A stretch of 24,188 nt of DNA, taken from assembly GCA_022385805.1 (NCBI GenBank), contig MU277781.1, positions 43,804 through 67,991 of the forward strand. Reading direction: 5' to 3'. The position numbers were made by a program, and so were the translations under genes. This document shows, piece after piece, positions 4,072-24,188 of this stretch (position 1 is its first letter; every line of letters begins with the position of its first letter). This DNA comes from Pilatotrama ljubarskyi (taxonomy: Eukaryota; Basidiomycota; Agaricomycetes; Polyporales; Polyporaceae). The notes under the pieces are model-generated. The model was given only the letters and a program-made list of their open reading frames with translations. It was not told where the DNA came from and searched no databases.

Positions 4072-4416
4072 ACTACTCGTGGGCGCTAAAAGTATGGAAA
4101 TGCCCACCTGTTTGGGGGTCATTGACTTTTCACAACTATACTTCACCCTGTATGAGTGCTTTTCCTTATGTACCCTCAATGTCAGAAAATATGGGTGAGT
4201 AAGGAGTGTATGATACAGTCTGTGCTTGATTTGCTGTCCATGAATGGGAGATATGAATATACATCTTGACCTTGCCCTCAATGTCTGCTGCTTGCCTGAT
4301 TTCTCAAGCATCTCTGGCCACATTGGCTAGGCTATCCTCCATACCAATATTAGAAATATGTATGCCTATGGGCTACCTTTCTGGCAAGGCATTTGACGTG
4401 AATTGAACCGGCTTGC
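4072..4416 (+). repeat. Left inverted arm of foldback element
   Basis: It matches the reverse complement of 4672-5017 over about 345 bases with scattered substitutions. Matching blocks include GGGCGCTAAAAGTATGGAAA at the outer end and TATGCCTATGGGCTACCTTT near the inner end. Divergence between the arms suggests an old insertion or arms that evolve separately. Confidence 0.8.
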
Positions 4417-4671
4417 ATAATTTGTAATTAAGGTAACTCTGTCAACGCTCACAACACTTTGTGCTTTGATACCTGTGTGCTAATAGCTTGCACAGCAATT
4501 GATGCCCTGCCCTATGGAGGTTCACATTCTTCTCCCCGCACCCTCTTGTCCGTGTGATCATGTATCTGTATGCCAAGCAGCAAGGGAGGGCTTCAACAGA
4601 GCTATATTGCATTATTGGGGTTAAAGTGCAGGCCACATGGGTGTCAGCAGGGTTACTCAAATATGAATCCA

Positions 4672-5017
4672 AGCGAGCCAGTTCAATTCATGTCAAATGC
4701 CTTGCCAGAAAGGTAGCCCATAGGCATACATGTTTCTGATATTGGTACAAAGAATAGCCCAGCCAATGTGGCCAGAGATGCTTGAAAAATCAGGCAAGCA
4801 GCAGACATTGAGGGCAAGGTCAAGATGTGTGTTCATATCTCCACTTCATGGACAGCAAATCAAGCACAGACTGTATTATACACTCCTTACTCACCCATAT
4901 TTTCTGACATTGAGGGTACATAAGGAAAAGCACTCATACAGGGTGAAATATAGTCGTGGGAAGTTGACGACCCCAAACTGGGTGGGCGTTTCCATACTTT
5001 TAGCGCCCATGAGTAGT
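4672..5017 (-). repeat. Right inverted arm of foldback element
   Basis: Inverted partner of 4072-4416. The outer end reads GCGCCCATGAGTAGT on the plus strand, which is the complement of the left terminus apart from one base. The 8-bp duplication follows directly. Confidence 0.8.
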
Positions 5018-8104: not shown

Positions 8105-9087
8105 ATGGGTAGGGTAATTCGGGCACAAAGGCGGTCGCACGCTATCGTACGTGGTCTCCGCGATATACATATGGGCCGTCATTCTGAGCTAGCGACCGTC
8201 CTCTCAGTTCAAATCCCACACCCACCACAACAAGGCGCCTGCGCAGTTCCGCCCCCTCGACTTCGCGGAGCGCAATGGCTACATCAAGGGTATCGTGAAG
8301 GAGATCATCCACGACTCTGGCCGGTCCGTTGATTTCTGGGTGCTCTGCATGTGCATGCGCTAACAGACACGCAGTGGCGCTCCCCTTGCCCGTGTCGTCT
8401 TCCGCGACCCCTACCGCTACAAGCTCCGCAAGGAGACCTTCATTGCGACTGAGGGTCTCCACACTGGTGCCTTCGTCTACTGCGGTAAGAAGGCCCAGCT
8501 CGCGGTCGGCAACGTCCTCCCCGTCTCCCAGCTCCCTGAGGGTACGATTGTCTGTAACGTCGAGGAGAAGGCTGGTGACCGTGGTGCGCTTGCTCGCACG
8601 TCCGGAAACTACGCGACTGTCATCGGCCACTCGCCTGATGAGAACAAGACCCGTATCCGTCTCCCCTCCGGCGCGAAGAAGACTGTCTCTGGCAGCTGCC
8701 GTGCTACCGTTGGTATTGTCGCGGGTGGTGGCCGTATCGACAAGCCCCTGCTCAAGGCTGGCCGTGCGTACTACAAGTTCAAGGCCAAGCGCTACAAGTA
8801 TGCGTGCATATTCTCTCACCAGCAAACATCGCTGACGATCTGTGTAGCTGGCCTCGTACTCGTGGTGTTGCTATGAACCCCGTGGACCATCCCCACGGTG
8901 GTGGTAACCACCAACACATTGGTAAGGCGTCGACAATCGCTCGTTCGGCCGTCCCTGGTCAGAAAGTCGGTCTCATTGCTGCGCGCCGGGTACGTCACAT
9001 ACTCTTTCCTAGCGGAATCCGCTCTCATTTGTTCCTGTCCTCCAGACTGGTCTGCTGCGCGGTACCGTCAAGGTCAAGGAGGTGTAA
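8105..9087 (+). CDS. RPL2: 60S ribosomal protein uL2 (yeast L2, human L8), 5 exons
   Basis: A core protein of the large ribosomal subunit that binds 23S-like rRNA near the peptidyl-transferase centre. Exons: 8105-8146, 8208-8323, 8375-8797, 8848-8989, 9046-9087; 254 residues, the normal length for eukaryotic uL2. The N-terminus reads [14 protein letters not shown] and continues across intron 1 into [14 protein letters not shown]. The family hallmark [17 protein letters not shown], containing the conserved His loop, is in exon 4, and the C-terminus is GTVKVKEV. Introns are 50-61 nt; donors are GTACGT, GTCCGT, GTATGC and GTACGT. The start context (CAGCCATGG) is strong. Everything expected of a functional housekeeping copy is present. 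Confidence 0.97.
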
Positions 9088-9625
9088 GGAGCTCGGTGTT
9101 GGAGACTTGTACCTGTTGTTCTTATGCTCTACCTCACTTGCACGATGTTACAAAAGCTTTGTATGCAGTCCATTGCATATGCATCATGACCATGCTCTTG
9201 ACCCACGACTATTTGAAGAGACTTGAGTGATATCTGAGATGAGACGTCGTAGATGAGCTTTGTCGCCGAAAGAATGGTGGTAGAGACAATTTAGGCTTCG
9301 ATGAAGCGTGCTTGAACCGGGTCCCGCTATGCCACTGATTAATGCCTGCGCGCGGAGATTTCTCTTCTCTTGCGCTCGCACTTATTGACCAAACGGCCAC
9401 CGACCGATGGATGCGATCGCATTAATGAAAGAGGTCTCGACAAGGCCTGAGAGGGCAACATCTGGGCCGGGAAAGGGAATTGCCGCTTCATGAGCGGGAC
9501 TCGTGACGTTCAGGAGGAGCGCTGCTCCCTGCTTCGGAGTCGGCCCGGTTAAGTACTTGCCTAGCTCTCCAGACAAGGTTGGTCCACTCTCTACTCGCCC
9601 GTCTACTCCCCTACTTACCGCCACC
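9088..9625. promoter_or_regulatory. Intergenic: 3' region of uL2 and promoter of the FGGY kinase
   Basis: This 538-bp stretch holds the uL2 3' untranslated region and the upstream region of the downstream same-strand kinase. The 60 bases before the kinase ATG are pyrimidine-rich (CTCTACTCGCCCGTCTACTC) and end in a near-perfect Kozak context (ACCGCCACCATG). Upstream in-frame ATGs exist from 9503, but the peptide they would add has no family resemblance. I see no RNA gene. Confidence 0.5.
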
Positions 9626-11790
9626 ATGTCCCAGTCAGCGTACTACCTTGGCATTGATGTCGGCACGGGCTCTGTCCGCGCGGGCCTCGTCAAGCACGAT
9701 GGTACCCTCGTGGCGACCTCCACCGAGGACACCATCACCTGGCGCGATCCGCAGGATCACCGCATCTTCGAGCAATCCACGAACAACATATGGGCTGGCA
9801 TGTGCAAATGCATCAAGGCCTGCCTCCAGGAGGCCAAAGTCTCCCCATCCGAAGTCAAAGGCATCGGCTTCGACGCGACGTGCTCGCTCGCGGTCTCCGA
9901 CATGAACGGCGAGCCGGTGGTGGTGACCAAGGGCGATCAGCTTGGCCAGAATGGCGATCGCAACATCATCTTATGGGCAGACCACCGCGCTGAGAAGGAG
10001 GCCGAACTTATCAACAGCACAGGGTCCGTGGTGCTCGACTATGTCGGGGGCACCATGAGTGTACGTTAACCACTTCGTCTCGCTTCATCAACCCAACACT
10101 GATGTGTGTATACCACAGCTTGAGATGGAGATTCCGAAGACTCTTTGGCTCAAGCGCAATATGAAGCCGGAGCTGTTTAAACGCTGCCAGTTCTTTGACC
10201 TCCCCGATTTCCTCACCTACCGCGCGACTGGCTACAACCGCCGCTCCTGCTGCTCTGTCGCGTGCAAGTGCTCTTATGTCCCGACCAAGAATGGTTGGCA
10301 GCCCGACTTCTTCCAGAAGATCGGTTTGGGCGAGTTCGTGGAGAACAACTTCGAGCAGCTCGGCAGCGAGGAAGTCCTCACGGCCGGCATGCCCATTGGC
10401 AATGGTCTGTCCAAGCAGGCGGCCGAGGAGATGGGTCTGCTCGAGGGAACTCCTGTCGGCAGCGGTGTCATCGATGCGTAAGTCTGATATGTGGTCGTGG
10501 AGAAGCGGATTGATGACCCCTCTCTAGCTACGCTGGCTGGCTCGGTACCGTTGCTGCACGGTACAAAGTCAACGGGAAGCTCTCGGACGAGGTACCTAGT
10601 CTTGACGAATCGAGGCATCGCCTAGCCGCGGTTGCCGGTACGAGCACATGCCACATCGTGCAGGCGAGTATTATGCGCTTTGGAAGTGGCTTCCATACTT
10701 AAACCTGCTTCAGAGCCCCGAAGGTGTCTTCGTCAACGGCGTATGGGGACCGTACAAGGACGTCGTGTTCCCGGGATGGTGGATGAACGAAGGTGGACAG
10801 TCCTCTACTGGTCAGGTCAGTGGACCATGTAGATTCCAGACCGACCGGGACTTACAAGCGTCTCCAGCTTATCGACTTCATGATCACGACGCATCCTGCG
10901 TACCCGAGACTCAAGGAGCTGGCCGAACAGCAGAAGACTAACATTCACGAAGGTACGCTGGCCGGATTGTACAAAAGCCTCGGTCCTGAATGTCTTGAAT
11001 CCCAGTACTGCAGAACGAACTCGAGAAGCTGCGTGCGGAGGAGAAGGTGGAAAACCTTACCGAGCTCACGAAAGATCTGCATTTCTACCCTGATCTGCAC
11101 GGTGAGTTTGCACGATCTCGGGGCTGACAGCCTACTGACTCGGTGTTACTAGGGAACCGTTCTCCGCTCGCGGACCCTCGTATGCGCGGCTCCATTGTTG
11201 GCCTCACCCTTGTACGCCCTTCTTGCAGACAGCTGGCCGTGATATTCGACTCAATAGATTTTTGCAGGACTCTAACCTGGGTGACCTCGCGCGCAAGTTC
11301 AACGTGACCCTCGAAGCCATCGCGTTGCAGACGCGCCATATCGTCGACCAGATGAACGACAAAGGCCACTCTATCCGCTCCATCTACATGTCCGGCGGAC
11401 AGGCGAAGAACGCGATGCTCATGCAACTCTTCGCAAACACGTGCAACATGCCCGTCGTGCTGCCGCAGAGCAGTGGCGCAGCGGTCGTCCTCGGGGCTGC
11501 CATGCTCGGTCGTTTCGCCGCGGAGGCGCAGCGCAAGAACCTCGGCAAGGAGCAGCGTGGCCAGGCGCTATGGGAGATTATGGTACGTCTGCCGATGCGG
11601 TAGGGGCGTTCGGTGCACGTGTACTGACTTGATACTGCAACAGGTAGAGATGACGCCGCCGGGCACGATGGTACAGCCTGCTGCCAGCCCGAAGGAGAAG
11701 AAGCTCCTCGAAGCGAAGTACAAGATCTTCCTTGAGCAGATTGACATCCAGAGGCGCTGGCGCAGGGAGATGGAGGAGGCCGCCCGCTGA
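9626..11790 (+). CDS. FGGY: FGGY-family carbohydrate (pentulose-type) kinase, 9 exons
   Basis: An ATP-dependent sugar kinase of the FGGY superfamily, closest in feel to the animal FGGY / yeast YDR109C group, whose members phosphorylate ribulose-like sugars; the exact substrate is inferred. Exons: 9626-10060, 10119-10477, 10528-10663, 10714-10815, 10868-10952, 11006-11101, 11153-11211, 11268-11582, 11644-11790; 577 residues. The N-terminal phosphate motif is GIDVGTGSVRAG (9-20), FDATC lies near 82-86, and GWWMNEGGQSSTGQ ends exon 4. TRHIVDQMN (446-454) and MSGGQAKN (465-472) are followed by SSGAAVVLGAAMLG, the ATP-side signature. The intron between exons 3 and 4 uses a GC donor (CAG|GCGAGT). 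A Cys-rich loop (RRSCCSVACKCSY) is in exon 2. The start was chosen for its Kozak context and because the family motif begins at once. Confidence 0.93.
10664..10713 (+). other. GC-AG intron in the FGGY kinase gene
   Basis: A 50-nt intron with donor GCGAGT instead of GT, otherwise a perfect match to the donor consensus (CAG before it), and acceptor GCTTCAG. Removing it joins HIVQ directly to SPEGVFVNGVWGPY in phase 0, as the family requires. Reading through would meet TAA (CATACTTAAACC) in one phase and break the conserved block in the others. Confidence 0.8.
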
Positions 11791-12178
11791 AGCTGAAGGC
11801 TTGTGCCGCCATCTTGGAAAACGATCACGGAGAAGGACGCTTGCATAGACATAGAGATGCAATGTAACAACACGTCGGTGGACTCGGTGCTCTCTGTCCG
11901 TGAGCTTGTTCACGTGTGGTTGTATGTCGATGTGCCCGAGATCGTCGAAGCCCACACATGTAATGACCGTCGAAAATGCTCTCCGAGAGGAGCGCTGCGA
12001 TGCATGCATTGAGAGGGCCAGGGGAAGAGGCGCCAAGACGCTGCGGTACGACCGCTTCTACACTACTTCTACAACTACGTATAAGAAAGCCAATAAAGAA
12101 ACACATCATATGTACAGACAAGTCCGAGAAACGACCACATAAGCTGACAGTGCTACGATCCGCGCGTGGGCGCAGGCC
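11791..12178. other. Convergent 3' intergenic region
   Basis: 388 bp between the stop codons of the FGGY kinase (+) and the cyclin (-). It contains an AATAAA hexamer near 12092 on the plus strand, a possible polyadenylation signal for the kinase, and is less GC-rich than the flanking exons. No gene or repeat is visible. Confidence 0.5.
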
Positions 12179-13414
12179 TCAGATTTTGAATAGGCCCGAC
12201 GTTCCCCACACGGCGGTGTTGTCGTAGCACCGCCAAGGATACGTCGTCTCGACGCGGCACTCCTGCGGCCGCTCGTACCGTGCCGTCGGTGGCGAGAACG
12301 GCTCGAACCGGGGCGAGTCCGCTGGTGCAACGTACGGGTCCGCGGCGTACCACCTCACACGCGCCTCCATCTCCGGATCTCGACGCGGTGGATGGTTAGG
12401 GTGCGGCGTCGAGGGGCGGCGCGGCGGAGCGAGGTAGGGGTTGTACGACGCGCCCTTCGGGAGGTGGGAAGGGTACGCGTCGGGAGGAGTGATGACTGGG
12501 GGTGTCGAGTTGTAGGAGTCCGGCGAGTCCGGATACATTAGGTCAGGTAGGTTCGCCATGGTTGGCGCCGACTCCTCGGCGTGCGCGTGCGCGTGCGGGC
12601 GGGGGTGGATGGGGTAGCGGTACTCGGCGCGCTCGCGGTGCGCGAACACGGAGCCGGTGCGTGCGGACTGGCGCCACGCGTCCGCGCCCTTGCGCGTCGC
12701 GCGCATGAGGCCCTCGTGGTGCGCGAGGAGGTCCGCGTCCGTCACGCGCATCTCGAAGTTGAGCAGATAGAGGAACTCGCGCTCGATCCGGCATATGTCC
12801 GCCTTGCTGAAGACGCAGCTGCAGCGCGCCCAGTGCTCCGCTTTGACGGGCGCGTCGTTGATGTACTGCAGGCGCCGTGAGAACTCTGGCTGCAGGGTCC
12901 GGCGTGGTGGCGAGGGAGGCGGGACGTACCTTGAACGCGGTTATGAGCGCGCCGATGGCGAGTCGCTCGCAGACCCAGTCCTCCGAGTCGATCTCCAGGT
13001 GTTTCCGGATGCGGTCGAGGTAGACGATCGCCACAAGGACGGCGGGGGTGTCCATGCGCGTGTACTCGAGGAACGTCTTGACGATCTGCGTCGTCTGCAT
13101 GTTCTTCAGTCCGAACGCGACCTTGTACGTCGGCCCGATGAGGGCGCTCGCCACCGTGAGGGTCACGACGTCGAGGAAGTAGTCTGTGGCGGGGGCGCGC
13201 GCAAAGTTCGGAAGCGCGCTACAGGCTCGCGCGAGGAAGGCGACTTACCGAGGACGCTCCACGACAGCGGCGTCTTGACCATCTCGACCACGCGCGGGTT
13301 GTGGTCCCTGGGGTCGACCCGGCTAGCAGGATCGACGGAGCAGGCAGGGGTAGTGGCGCAGGACATGGAGAGGGACATGAAGGCGGGGGCAGAGGAGGTC
13401 GCAGCAGAGCCCAT
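12179..13414 (-). CDS. PCL-type cyclin (cyclin N-terminal domain), 3 exons
   Basis: A cyclin of the Pcl1/Pcl2-like group, which activates Pho85/CDK5-type kinases at the G1/S transition and in polarity control; the kinase partner is inferred. Exons (minus): 13414-13249, 13183-12930, 12865-12179; 368 residues. The cyclin box (~residues 60-180) includes LDVVTLTVASALIG, TFLEYTRMDTPAVLVAIVYL with LDRIRK, and ALITAFK joined across intron 2 to YINDAPVKAEHWARCSCVF. It then has DICRIEREFLYLLNFEMRV, the helix typical of PCL cyclins. The remaining ~140 residues are disordered, Pro/Arg/His-rich (HAHAHA, PPRRPSTPHP). Intron 2 could also end 24 nt upstream at CCCTGCAG, adding eight residues in frame; I chose the acceptor that restores the conserved K-Y-x-N-D. 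It converges on the FGGY kinase. Confidence 0.9.
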
Positions 13415-14313
13415 TGTGCAGGTTCGCCGGGCTCGTGGAGGTATAAAAGGGCGCGGTAGCAGGATATCTAGATCGACGGATGCGGCAGCTGCTGCAGACT
13501 GCAGACTGCGGGGACGGACGAGGGAATATGAGCGTGGGTGAGCGAGCGCGTGTTTTGTCCGGCGAGAAGCCTGTTGGTGGTTCAGAGGTGCTGCTGCTGC
13601 TGCGGGAGAGGAAGTGGCGAACGCAACTTATATGAAGGGGAGAGGATAGGAGGCCAAAGCGGCCTTGCGGCGCATTAGCCAGAACAACCAGGAGCGCCTT
13701 CCAAAGCGGTCGCGAAGGCCCACATGGACCTGCGAGTCTGCATGGCGCAAGTCCAAGCGTTGATGTACGGATTGTCCGGCGCGCGCGATGCGGTGTGTTG
13801 TGGCGAGTGCGCGAGGCACGGGAAGACAAAGCTAGCGCTGGCCTCGCGACGGGGCTCTGTTCACAAGAGACAGAAGGTCCAGAGGTGCCGCGGGAGAATA
13901 AACGGTAGGGGCAATAGCCTTTGTTAACGGCAAGAGGGAAGGCGACGAATGGCGTGGACCATTGTGCTTTTGGCGCCCACCAAGAAGCTGTGCTCCAGAT
14001 TCTCCGCGGCTGCAGCAAGGCGCGCCGGGCGCGTGCACGCAGCAGACCCATGAAGTGTCCTACGCTCGGACCAAGCACGGAGTCAGCGAAAATTGCAAAG
14101 CAAGGTAGGAGATATGATACGAAGGCGCTGCTCTGACTCGATATGACACGCCTGGACCAGAGTCCCACTGATTGCAGGTTGAATGTCTCAAGTCTCTCCG
14201 TGATGGCACACTGATTGAAAGGCTGGGGCATGTCAAGGCATGTTTTGTGGTAGTGAATACATATGCGTGCATGCGAGGGTAGAGAGCAAAGATCGAAGAG
14301 AATCCCGAAGCGT
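13415..14313. promoter_or_regulatory. Upstream region of the cyclin gene, 3' region of eS25
   Basis: About 900 bp with no supported gene. A 302-codon minus-strand frame spans most of it and runs into cyclin exon 1 out of phase, but its composition (Ser/Arg/Leu/Pro, no motif) looks like chance in GC-rich DNA. TATAAAAG occurs near 13442 but points away from the cyclin. On the cyclin strand CATATAAG occurs near 13630, about 220 bp before its ATG, a possible TATA element. A short CTG/CAG run (GCTGCTGCTGCTGC) lies at about 13591. Confidence 0.45.
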
Positions 14314-14880
14314 TTAGTCAGAGCCGCCGCCCGTTGAACGTGCTACGAAAAGATCAAAGCGTCAGCTTTCTCCTGTCCTCGCCCCTCCGCAAGAATATAC
14401 GCACTGTAGATGAGCTGGCCGCTGTGGTGCACGATCCGCTTGATCTGCCCCTCCTTCTCCAGGTGCCTGATCGCGATGCGCGCGAGGGATCCGTTGATCT
14501 TCAGCCGCTCGATGAGGATGGACTGGCTGATGAAGCGGAACGTCGGGACCTCCTTCAGGATGCGGTCGTACGTCGGCTTGTCGAGGACGACGGCGTGCTG
14601 CGCCTTGTCCTTGACCTTGCCCTTGGACCACTTCTTCTTCTTGGCAGCCTTGCCACCGCTGGACGACGTGGGTGCTGCTGCCTTAGCCTTGGCCTGCGCG
14701 AGGGGAGAAGAGGGACATCCGATTAGTCACAGACTCAAAGCTCAAGGCGTCATCCGGAGCGGCAGACAGCCATCCATGCGAACCCGACCCCTCGACGCCG
14801 CGAAAAACGGCTTAGAGGGCTCGATAGCACGTTGGCGGGCCTGTCTGTCGGCTCATAGGACTGGCAGCGGTACTCACCAT
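14314..14880 (-). CDS. RPS25: 40S ribosomal protein eS25, 3 exons
   Basis: A small-subunit protein near the head and E site, needed for some IRES-driven initiation in other eukaryotes. Exons (minus): 14880-14878, 14693-14405, 14342-14314; 106 residues, normal for the family. Exon 1 contributes only the ATG before a GTGAGT donor, and a 184-nt intron follows. The protein has the typical Lys/Ala-rich N-terminus ([20 protein letters not shown]), then the winged-helix core ([48 protein letters not shown]) and a short tail RSTGGGSD. Intron 2 is 56 nt (GTGCGT...TCGTAG). I looked for a box C/D snoRNA in the long first intron and found no convincing C and D box pair. Confidence 0.95.
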
Positions 14881-15406: not shown

Positions 15407-16258
15407 CTGCACGCACCCGAAGCCGGACTACGTCCTGTTCCTGCACTGCGTCGAGCGCTAGAATCAACGCTGTGTGCTGAGCAGGGGTAGACCTGCGCTG
15501 TGAGCAGCGCTGCATCATCGCGTACGTTACTTGCCTGCGAGTCAGTCGGTTGATGACGACTGGCGTAGAAGAGACGCTGTTTGCTTTGTATGCGCATCCT
15601 CCGGCGATGCAGCGATCGTCCTCGTTCTGCTCCAGCGCTCGGCGCCAGATACTGCAGTCTCGCTGGGGCTTCGCGAAGAGCAGTAGCGAGTCGCGTCGGT
15701 GAGTAGAATGGAAGCACCATATCTGAATATTGCGGTTATGTCAGTGAATCAGAAAGACATCGCTACAAGACGGGCGCTGCTCACCGTCAGAATGAGTTGT
15801 TTCCATTTCCACGACAGCGCTGCCGCCATGGACGTGCAGTCCAAAGTGTGCTGGGACCTCACGACGGGATCAATCTATAATGTGCGGCTGACGGACGATC
15901 AGAAAGACTTTGCGCTCAAGTGCACATCGCTACATACCACGCAAGATAATGACACGTTTGGGCGGCCAATGGAAGACCGCAAGTCAAGGACGGGACGTCA
16001 TTCGGGCATTCGTTCCGTCGAACCTATCGTGTTCGGGGGAACATATATGACCGCGGGGGCAGGGCGGATGGCTTGTGCACGCGTCGTTCCACCCACGGTG
16101 GACGTCAGAAGATCTTGGGCATGGGAGACGACGGGCTGATCTGCGGAGGGTTAGGCTTGAGAAGCCGGTGCTATCGTTGCGGAGAGCGATGTTCCTAGGA
16201 CGCGGGTGCGGCCTGAGCATGCGCGCAGGTTCCGGGGTAGACTCGAAACCAGCCGGTC
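15407..16258. other. Intergenic stretch with one short ORF
   Basis: There is no strong gene. A plus-strand frame starting at an ATG with an excellent Kozak context (GCCGCCATGG, ATG at 15828) runs 104 codons to 16139. Its first ~45 codons (MDVQSKVCWDLTTGSIYNVR...) look more protein-like than the Arg-rich remainder, but no family is recognised and no introns are evident. The region lies just outside the left terminal repeat of the element described below, or partly inside it if the repeat extends further left. Confidence 0.25.
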
Positions 16259-16309
16259 GGGACGCACGTGGAAGCTGCCAATCGGGGTTTGAAAGGCAGC
16301 TTGCGTCCC
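16259..16309. repeat. Imperfect palindrome (hairpin) abutting the left terminal repeat
   Basis: GGGACGC (16259-16265) and AAGCTGCC (16272-16279) pair with GGCAGCTT (16295-16302) and GCGTCCC (16303-16309). This gives a 15-bp stem with a 6-base bulge on the left arm and a 15-base loop. It ends exactly where detectable homology to the right terminal repeat begins, because the right copy meets the window end there, so it may itself be part of the repeat. Confidence 0.6.
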
Positions 16310-16381
16310 AAACGACTGGTCAAACTCGGGGGGGTCCTGGCAGGAGCACCGGATTAGGCAGGCGTGTGAAAACGTACTTAG
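16310..16381 (+). repeat. Left terminal inverted repeat
   Basis: It matches the reverse complement of 24117-24188 with about nine mismatches and no gaps. The perfect inner block GCGTGTGAAAACGTACTTAG lies at 16362-16381. Other shared blocks are CTGGTC, AACTCG, GGGGG and GGCAGGAGC. The repeat may extend left of 16310, but its partner would be outside the window. Confidence 0.88.
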
Positions 16382-16477
16382 CAGTACGCGTATTCTCTAC
16401 CTTGGGGAATCTCGAAGAGGAGGGGACAGCCGTGTACAAGCTGACTCGAGAAGCTCACAATGAAATGCATTTCCATA

Positions 16478-19400
16478 TTATAAATCGTCTAAGTCTAATG
16501 ACAGCTCCTCTTCCTCCGCGAAGAACTTACGTGGATCATAGTCATCCTGGTCGAAGTGCTCCCACAGCTCCTCATCGCCCTCTTCGTACAGTGATGCGGG
16601 CAGCTCGCTGATGTATACGCCTCCTTGAGTGCCACCTTCAACGGCGCCAAGCCCGGTCGAAGCGGTCTGTAATGTTGACGAATAAATGAGTATTGACAGT
16701 CACACTGTGAGCCACTGTGCGAGCCTACCTCGGAGTCGCTATGCGCACTCGACTCCTGCTCGCTCGTTGTCGCCGATATCGGTGCCTCGCCCATAGGCAT
16801 ATCAGCCAGAGGCGTCATACGCCGCCGCCGCTGGAGCTGAGCGAACATCCGGTTGTACTCCTGCAGTGGCCCTCGTAGTTGGTCCAGTCCGGCCGAGATG
16901 ACGTTCAAGACCTCATCTTCGCCCTCAATGACGCGCCCGCGCTCGATGTCGTACACGTTATGCATCCGGAGCTTCTCACTGATGGTCTTGATGTCTCTAT
17001 GGAGCTCCGGACTCTGGTGCCGACTTCCGAGTCGCACGCCGAGGTTCTTGTTGACTTGCGAGGCGAGTGTACGGAGCAGGGTGACACATGGTGAGATGGT
17101 TTGCAGCCATTCCCACGACGCGTTGCTGCCCTGCGCTTTATAGATAACCTGTGGGAGAGGCATCAGTCGTGCACATCGGAGCATGGCAGGGCACTGGAAC
17201 GCACCTTGATCCAGTAATTCATGTGCTCTTGAAGTAAGTCGACAGGCACCCAAGCGTTCGCCTTGCCGGTGGAGTTTACTAGCCAATTCTTGATCATGAT
17301 GCGCCTGCGATTACGTGTGAGATCGAGAGACGCGGCAGACGATTCGTGAAGACGCACCTTAGAGGCTCAGGCCAAACGTGCGTGAGGTTATGAACGAGGT
17401 GGAGTAGCTCGTGGGCGTACTTTGTGCGCCCGCTTCCCCGGTACATGAGTGCAAGGATCTTCAGGACGCGCACAATGCGGCCTGAGTAGCCGCCCTTGAT
17501 CGCGTCCGTGAACTCGCGCAGAACCAGTGCGTCGCGGAGGAAGAGACACGCGTTCTCGTATACCATGTCGCCTTCGCGTGACTCGGGCGTCTTGGGAGCT
17601 AGGGGCGTTTGGCCGGTTGCCTCATGGTAGCCAGAGTGAGAGGATGCGGCTCCCGCCTGCACGCCCGGCGGGTCACGCGTTCCGGACAGTTGCACATCCA
17701 CCGCAGCTCTCGTTGGCACCGGACTCTCCAGTACTGCAGTAGGCGTCGATGTGGCTGCAGGCGAGCTTGCTGGGACAGAGGCAGAGGAGGCAGCAGCGTC
17801 TTGCGGGGGTAAGGGTGTACAGTCATTGGGAGATGGCCGCGCGAGCTCCGCGTGACGGTGACGCCGGAGTTTTGCGACTTCTGCGGGGCTACCGAATTTC
17901 TTAAGGATTTCAGCGGCGTGTGCTTTCAACTGGGTGAACGTCACAGTTCGAGCGTATTCCTCAAGGTCGGAGCATCCAGAAACAAGCTCAAGGCAATGGT
18001 GGATACACCCGCTGAGGCTGGTGAAGATCAGATCACGGCATGTGCGGTAGGGGGGAAGAGAGCTGGTGACGATAGGCTTCCGATCGAGGATAGTGTTCCA
18101 GAATGACAGACATGCGGGATTGCGAGTCCCAGACTGCGGATCGCCCCAATGGGTCTCAATGATACCGTGCGTCAAGGCCATTTGATGATGGAAGAAGCCG
18201 GGGCCGAAGACAAGATGACCATATGAGTTCGCCAGGGACTCGTGTCCAGCACGGTTGCTGATAAGAGTTCGAAGGCGAGCAATGGAAAGCTGGTCGCCAA
18301 AGACAGGACGGACGATGCCGGTGAACTTCGTAGTGCCGACGTCGAACCCGAGCTCCGTGAAGATACTGTCCATGACCTCGGCATTGCCGGTGACGCTCGA
18401 CTCGTCAATATTCATGGCAGGAAGAGGGTGGACCTCTGTCTGGTGGAGAGGGATTGTATCTTCCTTGTCGGGCAGGCATTGAGAGACGGCAGAGCGGAAG
18501 CGGGCGAAGGACTCCGAGCTGTCGACGATGATGCGCAGGATGGAGTGCTCCAGCGAGCTATGGAAGAGTCGTGCTTCCTCCGGGCTGTGGAGGATATCCT
18601 TCAAGGCCAGAGAGGGTGCAGCATCGAAAGACTGGAGAAGGTCGGAGGTGAGCATGTCCTCAGGCTTCGCGCCGTAGAGAGGGAAGATGGTTGCGCAGGT
18701 CCCATTCTCTTGCGAATCTTTGCGACCTAGGATCTGTTCAGCGATCTTGAAGACCATATTGATGTTGTCGTACACGTGCCCACACAGCGAAGAGTGAGCG
18801 CAGCGTCGTGTTGCCCGTCGACAGGCGGTGGAGATCCGCCTCAGCAAGCCTGCTCCGCGATGAAGGAGAGGAAAGCCTGCCGTGGGCGCCTGAGGACTGC
18901 CGGACACGTTCCCAGGTTCATCAATTGGACGCTGTACGGCGGCACAAGGGCGAGGCTGTTCCTCTGCTCCAGTCTCACGAGACGAGTCTTCATGCTGCTC
19001 TTCGTCCTGCTCATCACTGGCGCTCCCATCTTCGTTCTGCATGGAGTCCTGCGGTGTGTCTTTCTCAGGCCAGTCTGGATCCTCCGTGTCTTCGTCCTCC
19101 AAGCGATCGCCTCCCAACGCCGTCTCGGAAGGCCCATGCTGTCCATCTACGAGCGTGTCGTTCGCGACGACTAACGTGGGGATTGCATCCGGTGAGCCAT
19201 CACTTGATCCTGTACATCTCTCATCGTCATCTGTCTGGCCAGCATCAGTGGAGACGTCCGTCGTGCGGCTCCCTGCGATACTGGGATAGCTGCTGCAGAA
19301 GCCGAGGTTGGAGAGGACAGATATGATTTGCCGTTGCGCACCGGTAGCGTACAGGTAGAGTCCCACAATGTGCTTGACATAGCTGTTGTTCTGACTCCGT

Positions 19401-20387
19401 TCGCCTAACAAGTCTGTCATGGCAGTGCCGACCCTCTGCAACAACTGTGAGTACGTTTCTGTTGATATTGACCATGAAACTTACCTGCTCCTTCCGCGCA
19501 GCCCGTTTCAACAAAACCGAGTTCTCAACAGCGTCTTCAGGTGCGTTATCCCTACCCACCTTCTGGCGGTTCGTTGTACTGAACCGGTGCATCAGGGTGG
19601 ACATCGCGGGACACAGCGTGCGCAATGCGGCGTGGATTCGCGCGAGATCAAAACCCAACACGAAGTCTTCGGAGATCGTCATCTTGCGGGACTGTAGTAG
19701 ACCGTCGTGCGTTGCCCTATCGCCCTCCCTGCTAACCACTGTACTCATGTAGTTCAAACTCCAGTCGAGAAGCCGACGCTTGCCCGAGCGCGTGTTCTTG
19801 AAAGCCCATAGGTCCAGGATACGTTCCAGCTGGCCGGCAGCTCGGAACATGCCCTCGTAGCGTATGCTCCTCATTCCCGACTTCGGCGCAGACACATACT
19901 CAACGAGGTCACCCCAGGTCTGTCCGCCTCGGTCGAGCTCTGCAAGTGCGGCCTCGAAGGAACGTTTTCGGTTCATATCAGCCTCGTGCGCAGAGTGGGC
20001 GACTGCCTCGTGGTGAGCCTGGGCGGCAGCATGTGCTTCATTCTGGAGAGTTGCTTGCCGCTCTTCAGCTTGTTTCGCCAAGGTACGCTTGCACCTCTTC
20101 TGAGCTTTTCGTCGTTTGACTTGCTGGATGGTCTCAGTAGCCGTGGCGACGATAGGAGAGGTGTACACGACACCCGGGTCGCTCGACAATGCATCATTTG
20201 TGTGACGGGATGGCGTCTGCGGCTCACGAGCCCTCTCTAGGCTCTCCAGCCGTCCCAGAAGGGGCAGGGCGGTCGCTCCGCTTGGGCAGGGTGATGAGGG
20301 CAGGGAGGAGAGCGGAGATGAGGGAGGCAGTGGGCTAGGAGGATTCGGTATGCTCAGTAAGTCGTCCAAGTCATGGTCAGCGAGCAT
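16478..20387 (-). CDS. DUF6589 protein, candidate DDE-type transposase, 5 exons
   Basis: Exons (minus): 20387-19485, 19435-17358, 17304-17205, 17148-16729, 16666-16478; 1229 residues. The N-terminus is Ser/Pro-rich, with a basic cluster KRRKAQKRCKR (91-101, possible nuclear signal) and a helical Ala/Glu-rich stretch. The middle contains a long acidic disordered segment (around DEDTEDPDW). The core then resembles DUF6589, a family I know from Agaricomycete genomes: NIDESSVTGNAEV (D645), FGDQLSIARLRTLI (D682), GPGFFHHQMALTHGIIETHW. After a Ser/Pro/Thr insert come VNSTGKANAWVPVDLLQEHM (E1020) and YKAQGSNASWEWLQ. The order D, D, late E in a helix is what an RNase H-fold transposase shows; that reading is mine, not established. 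Intron 1 could be 40 or 49 nt in the same phase; I chose 49. The tail is acidic (FAEEEELSLDLDDL). No stop or frameshift is seen, so this gene looks intact. Confidence 0.82.
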
Positions 20388-20701
20388 CGAGCTGAGAACA
20401 TCACTTTTAGCATACTCATACTATGCATATGTGCGATTTTGACGTACTTCGATGTGTATTGGATCCCGTACTCGGTGGATTGCATGCGGCGTCGTTTGGA
20501 ATGTGACTGTAATGAAGAGCTCAGGCTCGATCACACCCGCTCCCTCTCTCCGCGCCTCACTGGCACATTTGCGTTGTCCGCCGCCTGTCCGCCGCCTTCC
20601 GCCTCCCTCTTGATCCCTCTGCTTCACATATCTTTGCGGCTCTATTGTCGGCTGCTCCACACGGGGCTTGTGTCATATAGCTCAGACCTTCGTATCCTGT
20701 G
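20388..20701. promoter_or_regulatory. Shared divergent promoter of the DUF6589 and helicase genes
   Basis: Only 314 bp separate the two start codons. The helicase side is strongly pyrimidine-rich over about 100 bases (CCGCCTTCCGCCTCCCTCTT), and the DUF6589 side is AT-richer (TACTCATACTATGCATATG). No other gene fits. A shared promoter predicts joint expression of the two products. Confidence 0.6.
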
Positions 20702-23700
20702 ATGTCTCCCCGGCGGCAGCGCTCTCAGAATGGTCCTCCGACCTGGACTCCTCACCCGAGAGAGTCTGCCTCGCATGCTCCACGCCCTCGTCTGACGGCT
20801 GAGGATGTCCAATCCTTGGCCGCTAAGATGCGTGAGGAGTTTAAATGGGAGTCTGATCCACGGGACTTCCAGCTTGAGGGTGTGCGGGCCCAGATTGAAG
20901 GCCAGGATATCATCATTCAAGCACCCACAGGTGCCGGAAAGACCGCCCTCGCCGCTGGACCCCATGTCTGGCCAGGGAACGAGCGGAAGTTCACCCTCAT
21001 GGTCTGCCCTCTGCTTTCCTTGGAGGAGGAGATGGTTCGTTGTACCCTTGCGTTGAACTCTCTAGTGTATGAATCTTTGAATGTTAGGTGCACACATTCA
21101 AGACGGACTTCGGACTCGAGGCTGTCGCTCTCAATAGCAAGAATGGGGCTTGTTCTCCTCTAGTTATCCGGGTGTGTTCTGTTCTTGAATTCACCAGAGG
21201 TCTCAGTTGATTTGTATGGGGCAACCGTGTGCAGGATATACTTGCAATGAAGTACCAGATCATCCTGCTCTCTCCTGAGATGCTCCAGTCGCGCACGTTC
21301 ATGAACCGTGTCCTCCGCAACTCGTCTTTCATGCGAAATATCATCTCGATGTTCATTGACGAGGCACATTGTATCGCACACTGGGGTGCCGACTTTCGCA
21401 AAAAGTATGGCTCTCTGGGGAAAATTCGAGCTTTCCTGCCCCGTGGAACGCCCGTCATCGCGGTCACCGCAACACTTACCGCCCGTGTACGGCGCACCAT
21501 CCACAGTGTGCTGCTATTCGCTCAGGCCGAAGCGCAGTCGCGCTTTCTGAACAAGGGCAATGATTGACCTAATGTGTCTATAGTTGTCCGGGCATGCGAA
21601 CATCCGCTCAACACCTACGCCGATCTCGAGTTCGTCATACCTCCTTCAACATCGCTGAGAGGCGCCTCGGACATCCCGAAGACCTACATCTACATCGACA
21701 ACATCGCCACAGGTGCCGAGGTCATTGACTACCTCGCTGGTCGATTGGAACAACACATGGCACAACATCCGGGCTGCCATATCACTCCTGGCGTCATCCG
21801 TCCATTCAACGCGACCCTCTCGCACGAATACCGAAGCCTAGCCATGGCGCACTTCCGCGCTGGGTCAATTCGCATTCTCGTATGCACGGACGCTGCAGGA
21901 ATGGTAAGTCAGCCATGGAAAAGTTGTACAAACAGTACAGTGTTGACAGAGTACTATCCAGGGCTGCAATATACCAGACATAGACCGTGTGGTCCAGTGG
22001 AAACTCCCTGCAACCATGTCGAACTTCATACAGCGTGCGGGTCGCGCGGCCAGGGGCAGGAATAGAACTGGCCTGGCTGTCCTACTCGTCGAGAGGAGCG
22101 TTTACAACACCGACCTGGTGAGTGAGGTCGAACCCGGGACATCCAGCAACAAGAAGTCGGGCCGTGGCAAGGCCGCGAGAGCACGAGAGGCGAAACCGCG
22201 GGGCAAGAAGGAAGTTCGTGAGTATGCTCTCGCCCATGGCATCGCACGAGGCGGATCCAAGAAGCTAGATGCACCCCCATGCGGTCTTCCACCCCGTATC
22301 GACGCGGAAGCGGCTGATGAAGGCTTGGCAAGCTTCGCGCAAAGTGTTACGTGCCGTAGGAAGGTGTGGGCACACATTTTTGAGAGCCCGACGGGAGGTA
22401 AGCACAAGCCACTGTCCGTGTCCACAATACTACTAATCTGCTCACCTCATAGAGCCAACGGTTCCCTGCTGCGATATCTGCTGTCCGTCATTGTTTGATG
22501 TAACACGGCCCGCGTCACTCCCACCAGAGAAGAGGAAGCAGAAGCCGAAATGTGGCCTTCCGGACCTCACAGCACAGAGGAAACTGCAAGAGTGGCGCGA
22601 GATGATTTTCGTCCGTGATCACGCTTGGGCGCAGTACGATGAAACCGCCATACTCAACGACGAGATGATCGCGGCTCTCACATCTTGCGGTCCACTCGCG
22701 CCCAGGCAGATCGCGGATATCCTCGAGGACAAGTGGGCGTTCTGGGACGAGTACCACGAGGAGTTGAAGAGCTTCATCGCGGCGCTCAAGTTGGCGTTCC
22801 ATCCGCTTCCGAAGAAGGCGACCGCCGACAACGCGGCGACTCCCGCTGCAGATGGAAGCCCGAATCCCCCGGCCCCTGAGTCAGCGAATACCGCATCTGG
22901 TAGCCTGAAGCGTGCTCGCGAAGACATGCATGCCAAATCCATTCCCCACGGGACTGCTTCAGACACCACGCTCTCACCGAATCCTGAGGCTCATGGGCTC
23001 AGCCTGGAGAACTACCTGCCACTGAAGCGTGCACGCGGCCTTGGGTCCGAGTCTCTAGCGTCATCGAGCACAGGCATTCAAGTTGCGAGTCCGGCGTACT
23101 TGGAGTCTGCAGCACAGCCGAGCGTAATGTATAGTCAGGCTCTTCATCTCCCAGTCCTCGGATCGTCCCCGGCTCCATCTAACATCTCGGATATCTACTA
23201 CCGAACAAGTCTGGTGCATCACAACGCCGTGCAGCCGCAGACCGGAGCGACTCCTCCGACTTTGCTCACCACCACCTCCGCTCGACAACCTCCCACATAC
23301 CCTGGCACAGGCAGTCCTGCGATGCCTGCGACACCTGTACGCATGAATTATCGCGAGCAAGGAGTTCCATATTCCACTCCCCTTCCGACAACTTTCGGCA
23401 CCGCGCCCCCAACCTCCTTCCATCCGAACCTGTCGACTTCGACTCCGGTCGCCCACTACCCTGCTCCTGCACGGCACGATTCTTATCCATATGCAGCTCC
23501 GGCAGCTCATACTCCTTTCGCAGGGGCGAGCACCAATCCGACGACACACGCATACTACTCAGCACCTCCGATCCGTAAGACCTACAATTGGTACGCGACT
23601 CCCCCGAGGATGACGCCTTCCCTTGTACCACCAATGCACATGCCGCAACCTGCCCCAATTCCCTCATCATCGTACCGAGTCCCTCCATCACGCTCTCCAG

Positions 23701-23966
23701 ATCCGTACCATTCTCAAGCTCAGTCTCGCATGATGTCTCTGCAGGCCCCGCTGCCACCCTCCACCCCTCACTATGCCACATATCCGTCCAAGAACGCCCA
23801 CAATGTCGCCCCAATGTATTTGAGCTCGACATCTGGTGCTTCAAATCCCGCGCAGCCAGAATACCGACCCTTGCCGCACTCCACAGGTGACTCGCGAGGC
23901 CTCCCAGCGTCGTATCCTCTTCACTTTGCCCGACCTCCCTCTCGTCGGCAGGACCCCCCGGCTTGA
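20702..23966 (+). pseudogene. RecQ-like SF2 DNA helicase with one in-frame TGA, 5 exons
   Basis: Exons: 20702-21034, 21088-21171, 21235-21903, 21962-22397, 22453-23966; 1011 codons if codon 250 is ignored. Helicase motifs in order: FQLEGVRAQI (56-65), Walker A APTGAGKT (74-81), DEAH (181-184), TATLT, CTDAAGMG (356-363) and QRAGRAAR (386-393). A RecQ-type zinc module follows, CRR (493) and CCDICC (513-518), and then a helical segment. The last ~390 residues are Pro/Ser/Ala/Tyr-rich and disordered. This is the divergent RecQ-like lineage common in mushroom genomes. Codon 250 (21565-21567) is TGA inside G-N-D-stop-P-N-V-S-I-V-V-R, where the family has G-N-D-R-P-N. No splice pair removes it in frame. 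Translation would stop after 249 residues, keeping the ATPase half and losing the second RecA lobe. A sequencing error, readthrough or recent decay are all possible. All other exons are clean, so any inactivation is recent. Confidence 0.88.
21565..21567 (+). other. In-frame TGA (nonsense) in the helicase gene
   Basis: The local sequence GGCAATGATTGACCTAAT encodes G-N-D-stop-P-N. The conserved residue is Arg, so CGA to TGA is the simplest history. In GATCGACC the changed C would sit in a CpG, the classic deamination context for methylated fungal transposons. Confidence 0.8.
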
Positions 23967-24116
23967 CTGTCCGTTGTTTCTCAGGCCTTTGTCATGCTTT
24001 GGGATGTATATGGTCTCGCGCATAAAGCATTGTCAGATTAGTAGAGAATATGCTAGTGTGCCCTTGTCGCTGCGGTCTGCTCCCTCACTTCTCCGGCAGC
24101 AGATATGCGTGTTTCT
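23967..24116. other. 3' flank of the helicase gene inside the element
   Basis: 150 bp between the helicase stop and the right terminal repeat. It is moderately AT-rich and contains CATAAAGC near 24020 and a T-rich stretch, a plausible 3' untranslated region. Its reverse complement shows only weak, patchy resemblance to 16382-16477. Confidence 0.5.
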
Positions 24117-24188
24117 CTAAGTACGTTTTCACACGCCTTCCTTATCCGGCGCTCCTGCCAAAACCCCCACGAGTTAGACCAGCCGTTC
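24117..24188 (-). repeat. Right terminal inverted repeat (cut by window end)
   Basis: Inverted copy of 16310-16381. The perfect inner block reads CTAAGTACGTTTTCACACGC on the plus strand. Homology continues to the final base, so the true outer terminus lies beyond the window. Confidence 0.88.

Follow-up and report, generated by a model that had tools for sequence, protein, structure and literature searches.

The analyzed window is a 24,188-nt stretch of DNA from Pilatotrama ljubarskyi, a wood-rotting polypore. It corresponds to positions 43804–67991 of contig C112 in a 33-Mb assembly, and the contig ends at 67,991. Two divergent genes and an associated pair of terminal inverted repeats (TIRs) are found at the following window positions.

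16229–16237: 9-mer GTTCCGGGG in the left flank, adjoining the left TIR
16238–16381, + strand: left TIR, 144 bp, opening with TAGACTCG (TAG at 16238); start placed from other copies, those bearing target-site duplications (TSDs)
16248–16266, + strand: outer arm of a palindrome in the left TIR; 0 of 500 mononucleotide shuffles reach its score
16302–16320, - strand: inner arm of the same palindrome
16495–19976, - strand: DUF6589 gene of several exons, a proposed DDE transposase (PF20231 match and predicted structure)
20702–23966, + strand: RecQ-like helicase gene (recQ_fam, 4e-43; DEAD and Helicase_C above Pfam cut-offs)
20702–21034, 21088–21171, 21235–21903, 21962–22397 and 22453–23966, + strand: helicase exons according to this analysis
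21565–21567, + strand: in-frame stop codon inside the helicase gene (frame reading and comparison with homologues)
24117–24188, - strand: inner part of the right TIR, from the inverted-repeat search; cut by the contig end

An inverted-repeat search of the window shows arms at positions 16311–16381 and 24117–24187 that are 71 nt long and 89% complementary. A direct count gives an identity of 63/71 with a longest perfect run of 22, and comparison of the window with itself by BLASTN recovers the pair with an E value of 4.9e-20. A preliminary description of this DNA reported the same 22-base run but gave the arms as 72 bases with approximately 63/72 identical. It correctly placed them just outside the stop codons of the divergent genes, whose frames end at 16495 (DUF6589) and 23966 (helicase). 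It also stated that the repeat is found nowhere else in the window. The 71-nt pair is indeed the sole inverted repeat around the two genes, but two others are present at the same settings, a local foldback (4072–4441 and 4648–5017, 89%) and a 25-nt pair (84%).

Extension to the left of position 16310 reaches the full left TIR, which starts at 16238. As judged from the sequence comparisons, the 71-nt arms are the inner half of this longer 144-bp terminal repeat (16238–16381). The segment at 16238–16331 is identical over all 94 bases to positions 1–94 of C59, where the flank differs from that of the window; C59 appears to hold the left terminus of a further copy, the interior of which is missing from that contig. 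The right end of an element at locus C64 aligns with the left end of the window element over 147 columns (80%). Since the window ends where contig C112 ends, the outer right TIR, the right flank and any TSD of the window copy are not visible.

The public model of the DUF6589 protein, P0001 (Pilatotrama ljubarskyi BV20DRAFT_957447), is 923 aa in length and starts at 19976; the frame is open further upstream and has an ATG at 20387. P0001 is 99% identical to the window DUF6589 exon with 70% of the query aligned. The PF20231 model matches the main exon in the window at 1.4e-103 and P0001 with 477 bits. The predicted fold has an RNase H core into which a large helical segment is inserted; its nearest structures are the transposases of Hermes (hAT), the P element and RAG1/Transib, which share these two properties but only about 8–10% identity in the aligned parts. 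A DUF6589 profile compared with PDB sequences gave nothing at E values up to 10. Acidic residues are conserved in the DUF6589 alignment, and residues D268, D426 and E699 (P0001 numbering) are proposed as the catalytic triad. The predicted fold and conserved acids lead to the proposal that DUF6589 is a DDD/E transposase. The earlier suggestion of an RNase H-like transposase beside a RecQ-like helicase thus agrees with the predicted fold and the domain matches. Hermes, the P element and RAG1/Transib are not known to have a helicase gene. The DUF6589 sequences of the window and C64 give a dN/dS ratio of 0.17 at a saturated dS (2.0).

The public model of the window helicase, P0121, is 985 aa. The helicase frame has a single stop, at 21565–21567, adjoining a GN...N motif. 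This motif is present in 116 of 120 listed helicase homologues (the best 120 of 1642) when counted anywhere in the protein; in 5 of 8 homologues displayed, the five that show the motif, it is at the same place. Helicase homologues without such a stop exist, and P0121 splices around it. As read from the sequence, the helicase of the window copy is probably broken, and the splicing in P0121 is probably an artefact.

There are eight DUF6589 loci in the genome, of which five, including the window, are flanked by inverted repeats. A RecQ-like helicase gene adjoins seven of the eight; at the eighth, C158, the contig ends where a convergent helicase is expected. All seven pairs are on opposite strands. 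Two are divergent (the window and C64, with 54% identity between their main DUF6589 exons), and five are convergent (C16, C38b, C123, C25 and C38a). The expectation that the genes are adjacent and divergent genome-wide is therefore borne out for adjacency and not for divergence. Where aligned, the DUF6589 sequences of C16, C38b and C123 are about 25–34% identical to that of the window, and those of C25 and C38a have no tblastn match to it at 1e-5.

A similar association is found in public genomes. Among the 120 listed DUF6589 matches, 77 have a species name and a contig (the other 43 were left out), and 53 of these 77 share an exact contig size with one of 119 helicase contigs (1 of the 120 listed helicase matches had none), identical size of large contigs representing linkage and not adjacency. 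The matches that share contigs cover 25 of 35 species labels. Co-location on small contigs is 4/13 at up to 20 kb, 7/19 at up to 60 kb and 12/26 at up to 100 kb. Missing partners may be among the helicase matches beyond the best 120 of 1642. Adjacency is supported by consecutive or near locus tags, e.g., EVJ58_g10195/10196, NM688_g6203/6204, NM688_g2309/2307, GSI_01526/01525 and NM688_g6046/6047. A single transposon with a DUF6589 transposase and a RecQ-like helicase explains the joint multi-copy distribution of the two genes.

TAG..CTA ends and duplicated flanks were sought at 17 loci, in sets of ten and seven. Related elements in the same genome have TAGNCTCG ends and 9-bp TSDs, as follows.

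C16: perfect 9-bp TSD TCAGTCACC; 6301 bp, both genes
C64: perfect 9-bp TSD GTTTTCGAC; 8153 bp, both genes
C38b: TSD with 8 of 9 positions alike, GAGCTGGGC/GAGCCGGGC; 6181 bp, both genes
C93: perfect 9-bp TSD GCTCATTCG; 732 bp, short derivative
C10: perfect 9-bp TSD GCAAACTGT; 679 bp, short derivative
C9: perfect 9-bp TSD CCCAGTGTC; 178 bp, short derivative
C56: CACTTTGCA on both sides, 9/9 by visual reading, the left side having four additional bases; approximately 3 kb

These TSDs vary in sequence and flank TAG..CTA ends. No TSD was found at the remaining 10 of the 17 loci: contig ends restrict the view at the window, C123 and C158, no TIR is seen at C25 and C38a, and the other five, from the second set, had only 1.5 kb of flank. 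No TIR was found at C25, C38a or C158, the last limited by its contig end. The genome has 28 occurrences of the pattern TAGNCTCG-N(2-5)-CCAGNCG, compared with 5 for the pattern read backwards. TSDs are often about 9 bp in MULEs, whose TIRs are long; they are 8 bp in hAT and P elements and 5 bp in Transib.

The TIRs, the 9-bp TSDs of the sister elements, the derivatives, the gene pairing, the predicted fold and the conserved acids strongly support a transposon. The preliminary description had placed both genes inside one TIR DNA transposon and had named a TIR occurring only once in the genome as a point against it; unlinked copies with common ends, e.g., C59 and C64, are present. It regarded the genes as cargo. 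They represent instead the element's own machinery, because the pair is present in all three two-gene elements with both ends (C16, C64 and C38b) and absent from the short C93 and C56, neither of which has a match to the DUF6589 or helicase protein. A junction left by a segmental inversion or duplication around ordinary host genes would be consistent with the gene pairs at C25 and C38a, which have no detectable TIR, and with a right flank of the window copy that lies beyond the contig end. Against it stand the unlinked copies that share their ends, the 9-bp duplications and the derivatives of reduced length; a mere inversion junction is rejected on these grounds and is given almost no credence.

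The TIRs have a palindromic organization. A block with ACCA lies close to the terminus and recurs as its reverse complement approximately 50 bases inward at 8 of the 11 ends tested. The palindrome score is matched by 0–2 of 500 mononucleotide shuffles at 9 of the 11 ends; it is not above shuffles at the left ends of C56 (81/500) and C123 (33/500). At the C64 left end the matching arm is 10 bases and differs from the ACCAG block. The palindrome may represent a putative paired binding site for the transposase.

The most likely class label is AcademH of the Academ superfamily, for which Kojima 2020 (Mob DNA 11:15) is reportedly the defining paper; the label is drawn from the size of the TSDs, the type of helicase and the group of hosts, and the transposases are compared by description only. 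Excerpts of the literature describe TSDs of 9 or 10 bp for AcademH and 3 or 4 bp for AcademX, a difference seemingly tied to the presence of a helicase or a nuclease (PMC10045372), and low copy numbers of AcademH in Basidiomycota, Ascomycota and Mucoromycota (PMC10799480). In the excerpted account of fungal Academ elements, 81% of counted copies carry domains such as DEAD/DEAH (PF00270) and recQ_fam, and copies are frequently annotated as host genes (PMC6416283). Putative non-autonomous Academ elements are described as widespread in the mushroom Marasmius oreades, also from an excerpt (PMC8290104). The element described here is likewise a TIR DNA transposon in more than one copy, with a transposase, an SF2 helicase and 9-bp TSDs in sister copies. 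It shares with the excerpted descriptions a low copy number in Basidiomycota and a recQ_fam helicase; no compared feature differs, the likeness being to published description and not to sequence, termini or gene order. Animal members are absent among the DUF6589 homologues listed: the best 120 of 456 are all fungal, and a length-restricted search gave 96 matches, all named fungal, with PF20231 as the only precomputed domain and no fusion with a helicase.

KolobokH is also described, in an excerpt, as a fungal type with a RecQ helicase (PMC9587614), and the combination of this helicase with a DDE transposase is the same as here. However, the excerpted description (PMC9587614) gives Kolobok TTAA 4-bp duplications and 5'-RR..YY-3' ends, and the KolobokH helicase lies downstream of the transposase domain, whereas the present elements have TAG..CTA ends and a helicase on the opposite strand. 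The TSDs of the sister elements are 9 bp and varied, so KolobokH is rejected, with a probability close to nil.

A MULE-type (MuDR) element that acquired a helicase is very unlikely. The TSD span of 4 to 10 bp given for the IS256/MuDR group in an excerpt takes in 9 bp (PMC10045372). A Pfam scan of P0001 at E <= 1 brings up no MULE model, although HMMER filters may hide weak matches, and the RecQ-like helicase carried here is a further difference.

Helitrons also encode a helicase, and are not known to have TIRs or TSDs. Their nuclease is of the HUH/Y1 type according to an excerpt (PMC12730594), in contrast to the DDE-type predicted fold, TIRs and 9-bp TSDs here.

A superfamily separate from Academ, i.e., a TIR element with a DUF6589 transposase and a RecQ-like helicase that is restricted to mushroom-forming fungi, is improbable but less so than the alternatives above. 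DUF6589 is likened to Academ by description and not by transposase homology, and its homologues among the matches listed are only fungal. In addition, the hAT/P/MuDR/Kolobok/Dada group has a C/DxxH signature between the second D and the last E that is not readily seen here: the candidate place, whose equivalence is judged from secondary structure only, reads GxxH at 458–461 (G458 in 193 and H461 in 192 of 195 rows). Against this, agreement with the excerpted descriptions of AcademH and fungal Academ extends to the size of the TSDs, the type of helicase, the hosts and the low copy number. A wider form of this reading, of the same low probability, adds an old and persisting transposase-RecQ partnership in which gene order flips between divergent and convergent and the helicase is needed at the palindromic TIRs before cleavage or strand transfer.

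The best explanation, held with considerable confidence, is a DNA transposon with TIRs that belongs to the AcademH lineage, with DUF6589 as its DDE transposase and a RecQ-like helicase as accessory, whose helicase gene now has a stop. DUF6589 would bind the palindromic TIRs and excise the element, a catalytic role that we infer, and would insert it elsewhere through cuts staggered by 9 bases, from which the 9-bp TSDs result. An accessory role as an SF2 motor is proposed for the helicase, whose substrate would most likely be the paired ends or else excision or gap intermediates. Short elements that share these ends may be mobilized in trans.

The window element appears to be a further example of the published AcademH-type elements. 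The preliminary description called it previously undescribed and a new type, but AcademH, KolobokH and fungal Academ elements with recQ_fam helicases are already published. The term DUF6589 gave no paper in the open-licence literature searched, so the link between DUF6589 and the Academ transposase may be unwritten so far. The results of lasting value are the function proposed for DUF6589, its resemblance in predicted structure to transposases of the Hermes type, the TIR palindromes and the occurrence of two gene orders. DUF6589 is a multi-copy Pfam family of mushroom-forming fungi, and the function proposed for its members is that of DDE transposases. If this is true, the RecQ-like proteins adjoining them are transposon helicases, and both should be omitted from counts of host RecQ proteins or of 'expanded gene families'. 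With their well-defined ends, TIR palindromes, 9-bp TSDs and short derivatives, these elements would allow a direct test of what a RecQ helicase does in cut-and-paste transposition.

The DNA to the left of the DUF6589-helicase transposon (window positions 8364–14726) carries ordinary host genes, identified by a Pfam scan of frames; four other window frames gave zero matches in the Pfam scan. An inverted-repeat search shows that a foldback element is also present.

4072–5017, foldback element, two arms of ~370 nt that are 89% complementary, 206 nt spacer
8364–8876, ribosomal L2 C-terminal domain (Pfam scan)
9494–10069 onward, FGGY-family kinase (Pfam scan)
14343–14726, ribosomal S25 (Pfam scan)

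A genome search shows two further near-full copies of the foldback, on contigs C25 (94%) and C10 (92%). Eight more genomic places match at the ends only, with ~37 bp at both ends and a spacing of 0.9–1.3 kb. Direct copies of GCCCATATACTA, judged by eye, are found on both sides of the foldback, which looks like a member of a separate, non-autonomous TIR element family.

Contig C59 has a second TIR-like hairpin (positions 95–165) immediately outside its copy of the transposon's left TIR. The hairpin starts with TAGGCTCGAACCCAGCCG (C59:147–164, minus strand), and the arrangement is as if one element had inserted at the end of another. The terminal sequence TAGTCTCGGCTCCAGACG occurs nine times in the genome (contigs C7, C12, C17, C21, C43, C53, C73 and C81). 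At C12:429.6k it closes a ~189-bp stretch on the right; this stretch lacks a matching target-site duplication, and its left end resembles that of the sister DUF6589-helicase element on C123.

In Ganoderma leucocontextum, the published account describes RecQ helicase genes near some telomeres (PMC10817607). TIRs were sought around two DUF6589-helicase pairs of the P. ljubarskyi genome.

C25:139865–144087, DUF6589-helicase pair, no TIR detectable
C38:26660–30934, DUF6589-helicase pair, no TIR detectable

These two pairs may be old relics, or they are candidates for host use.
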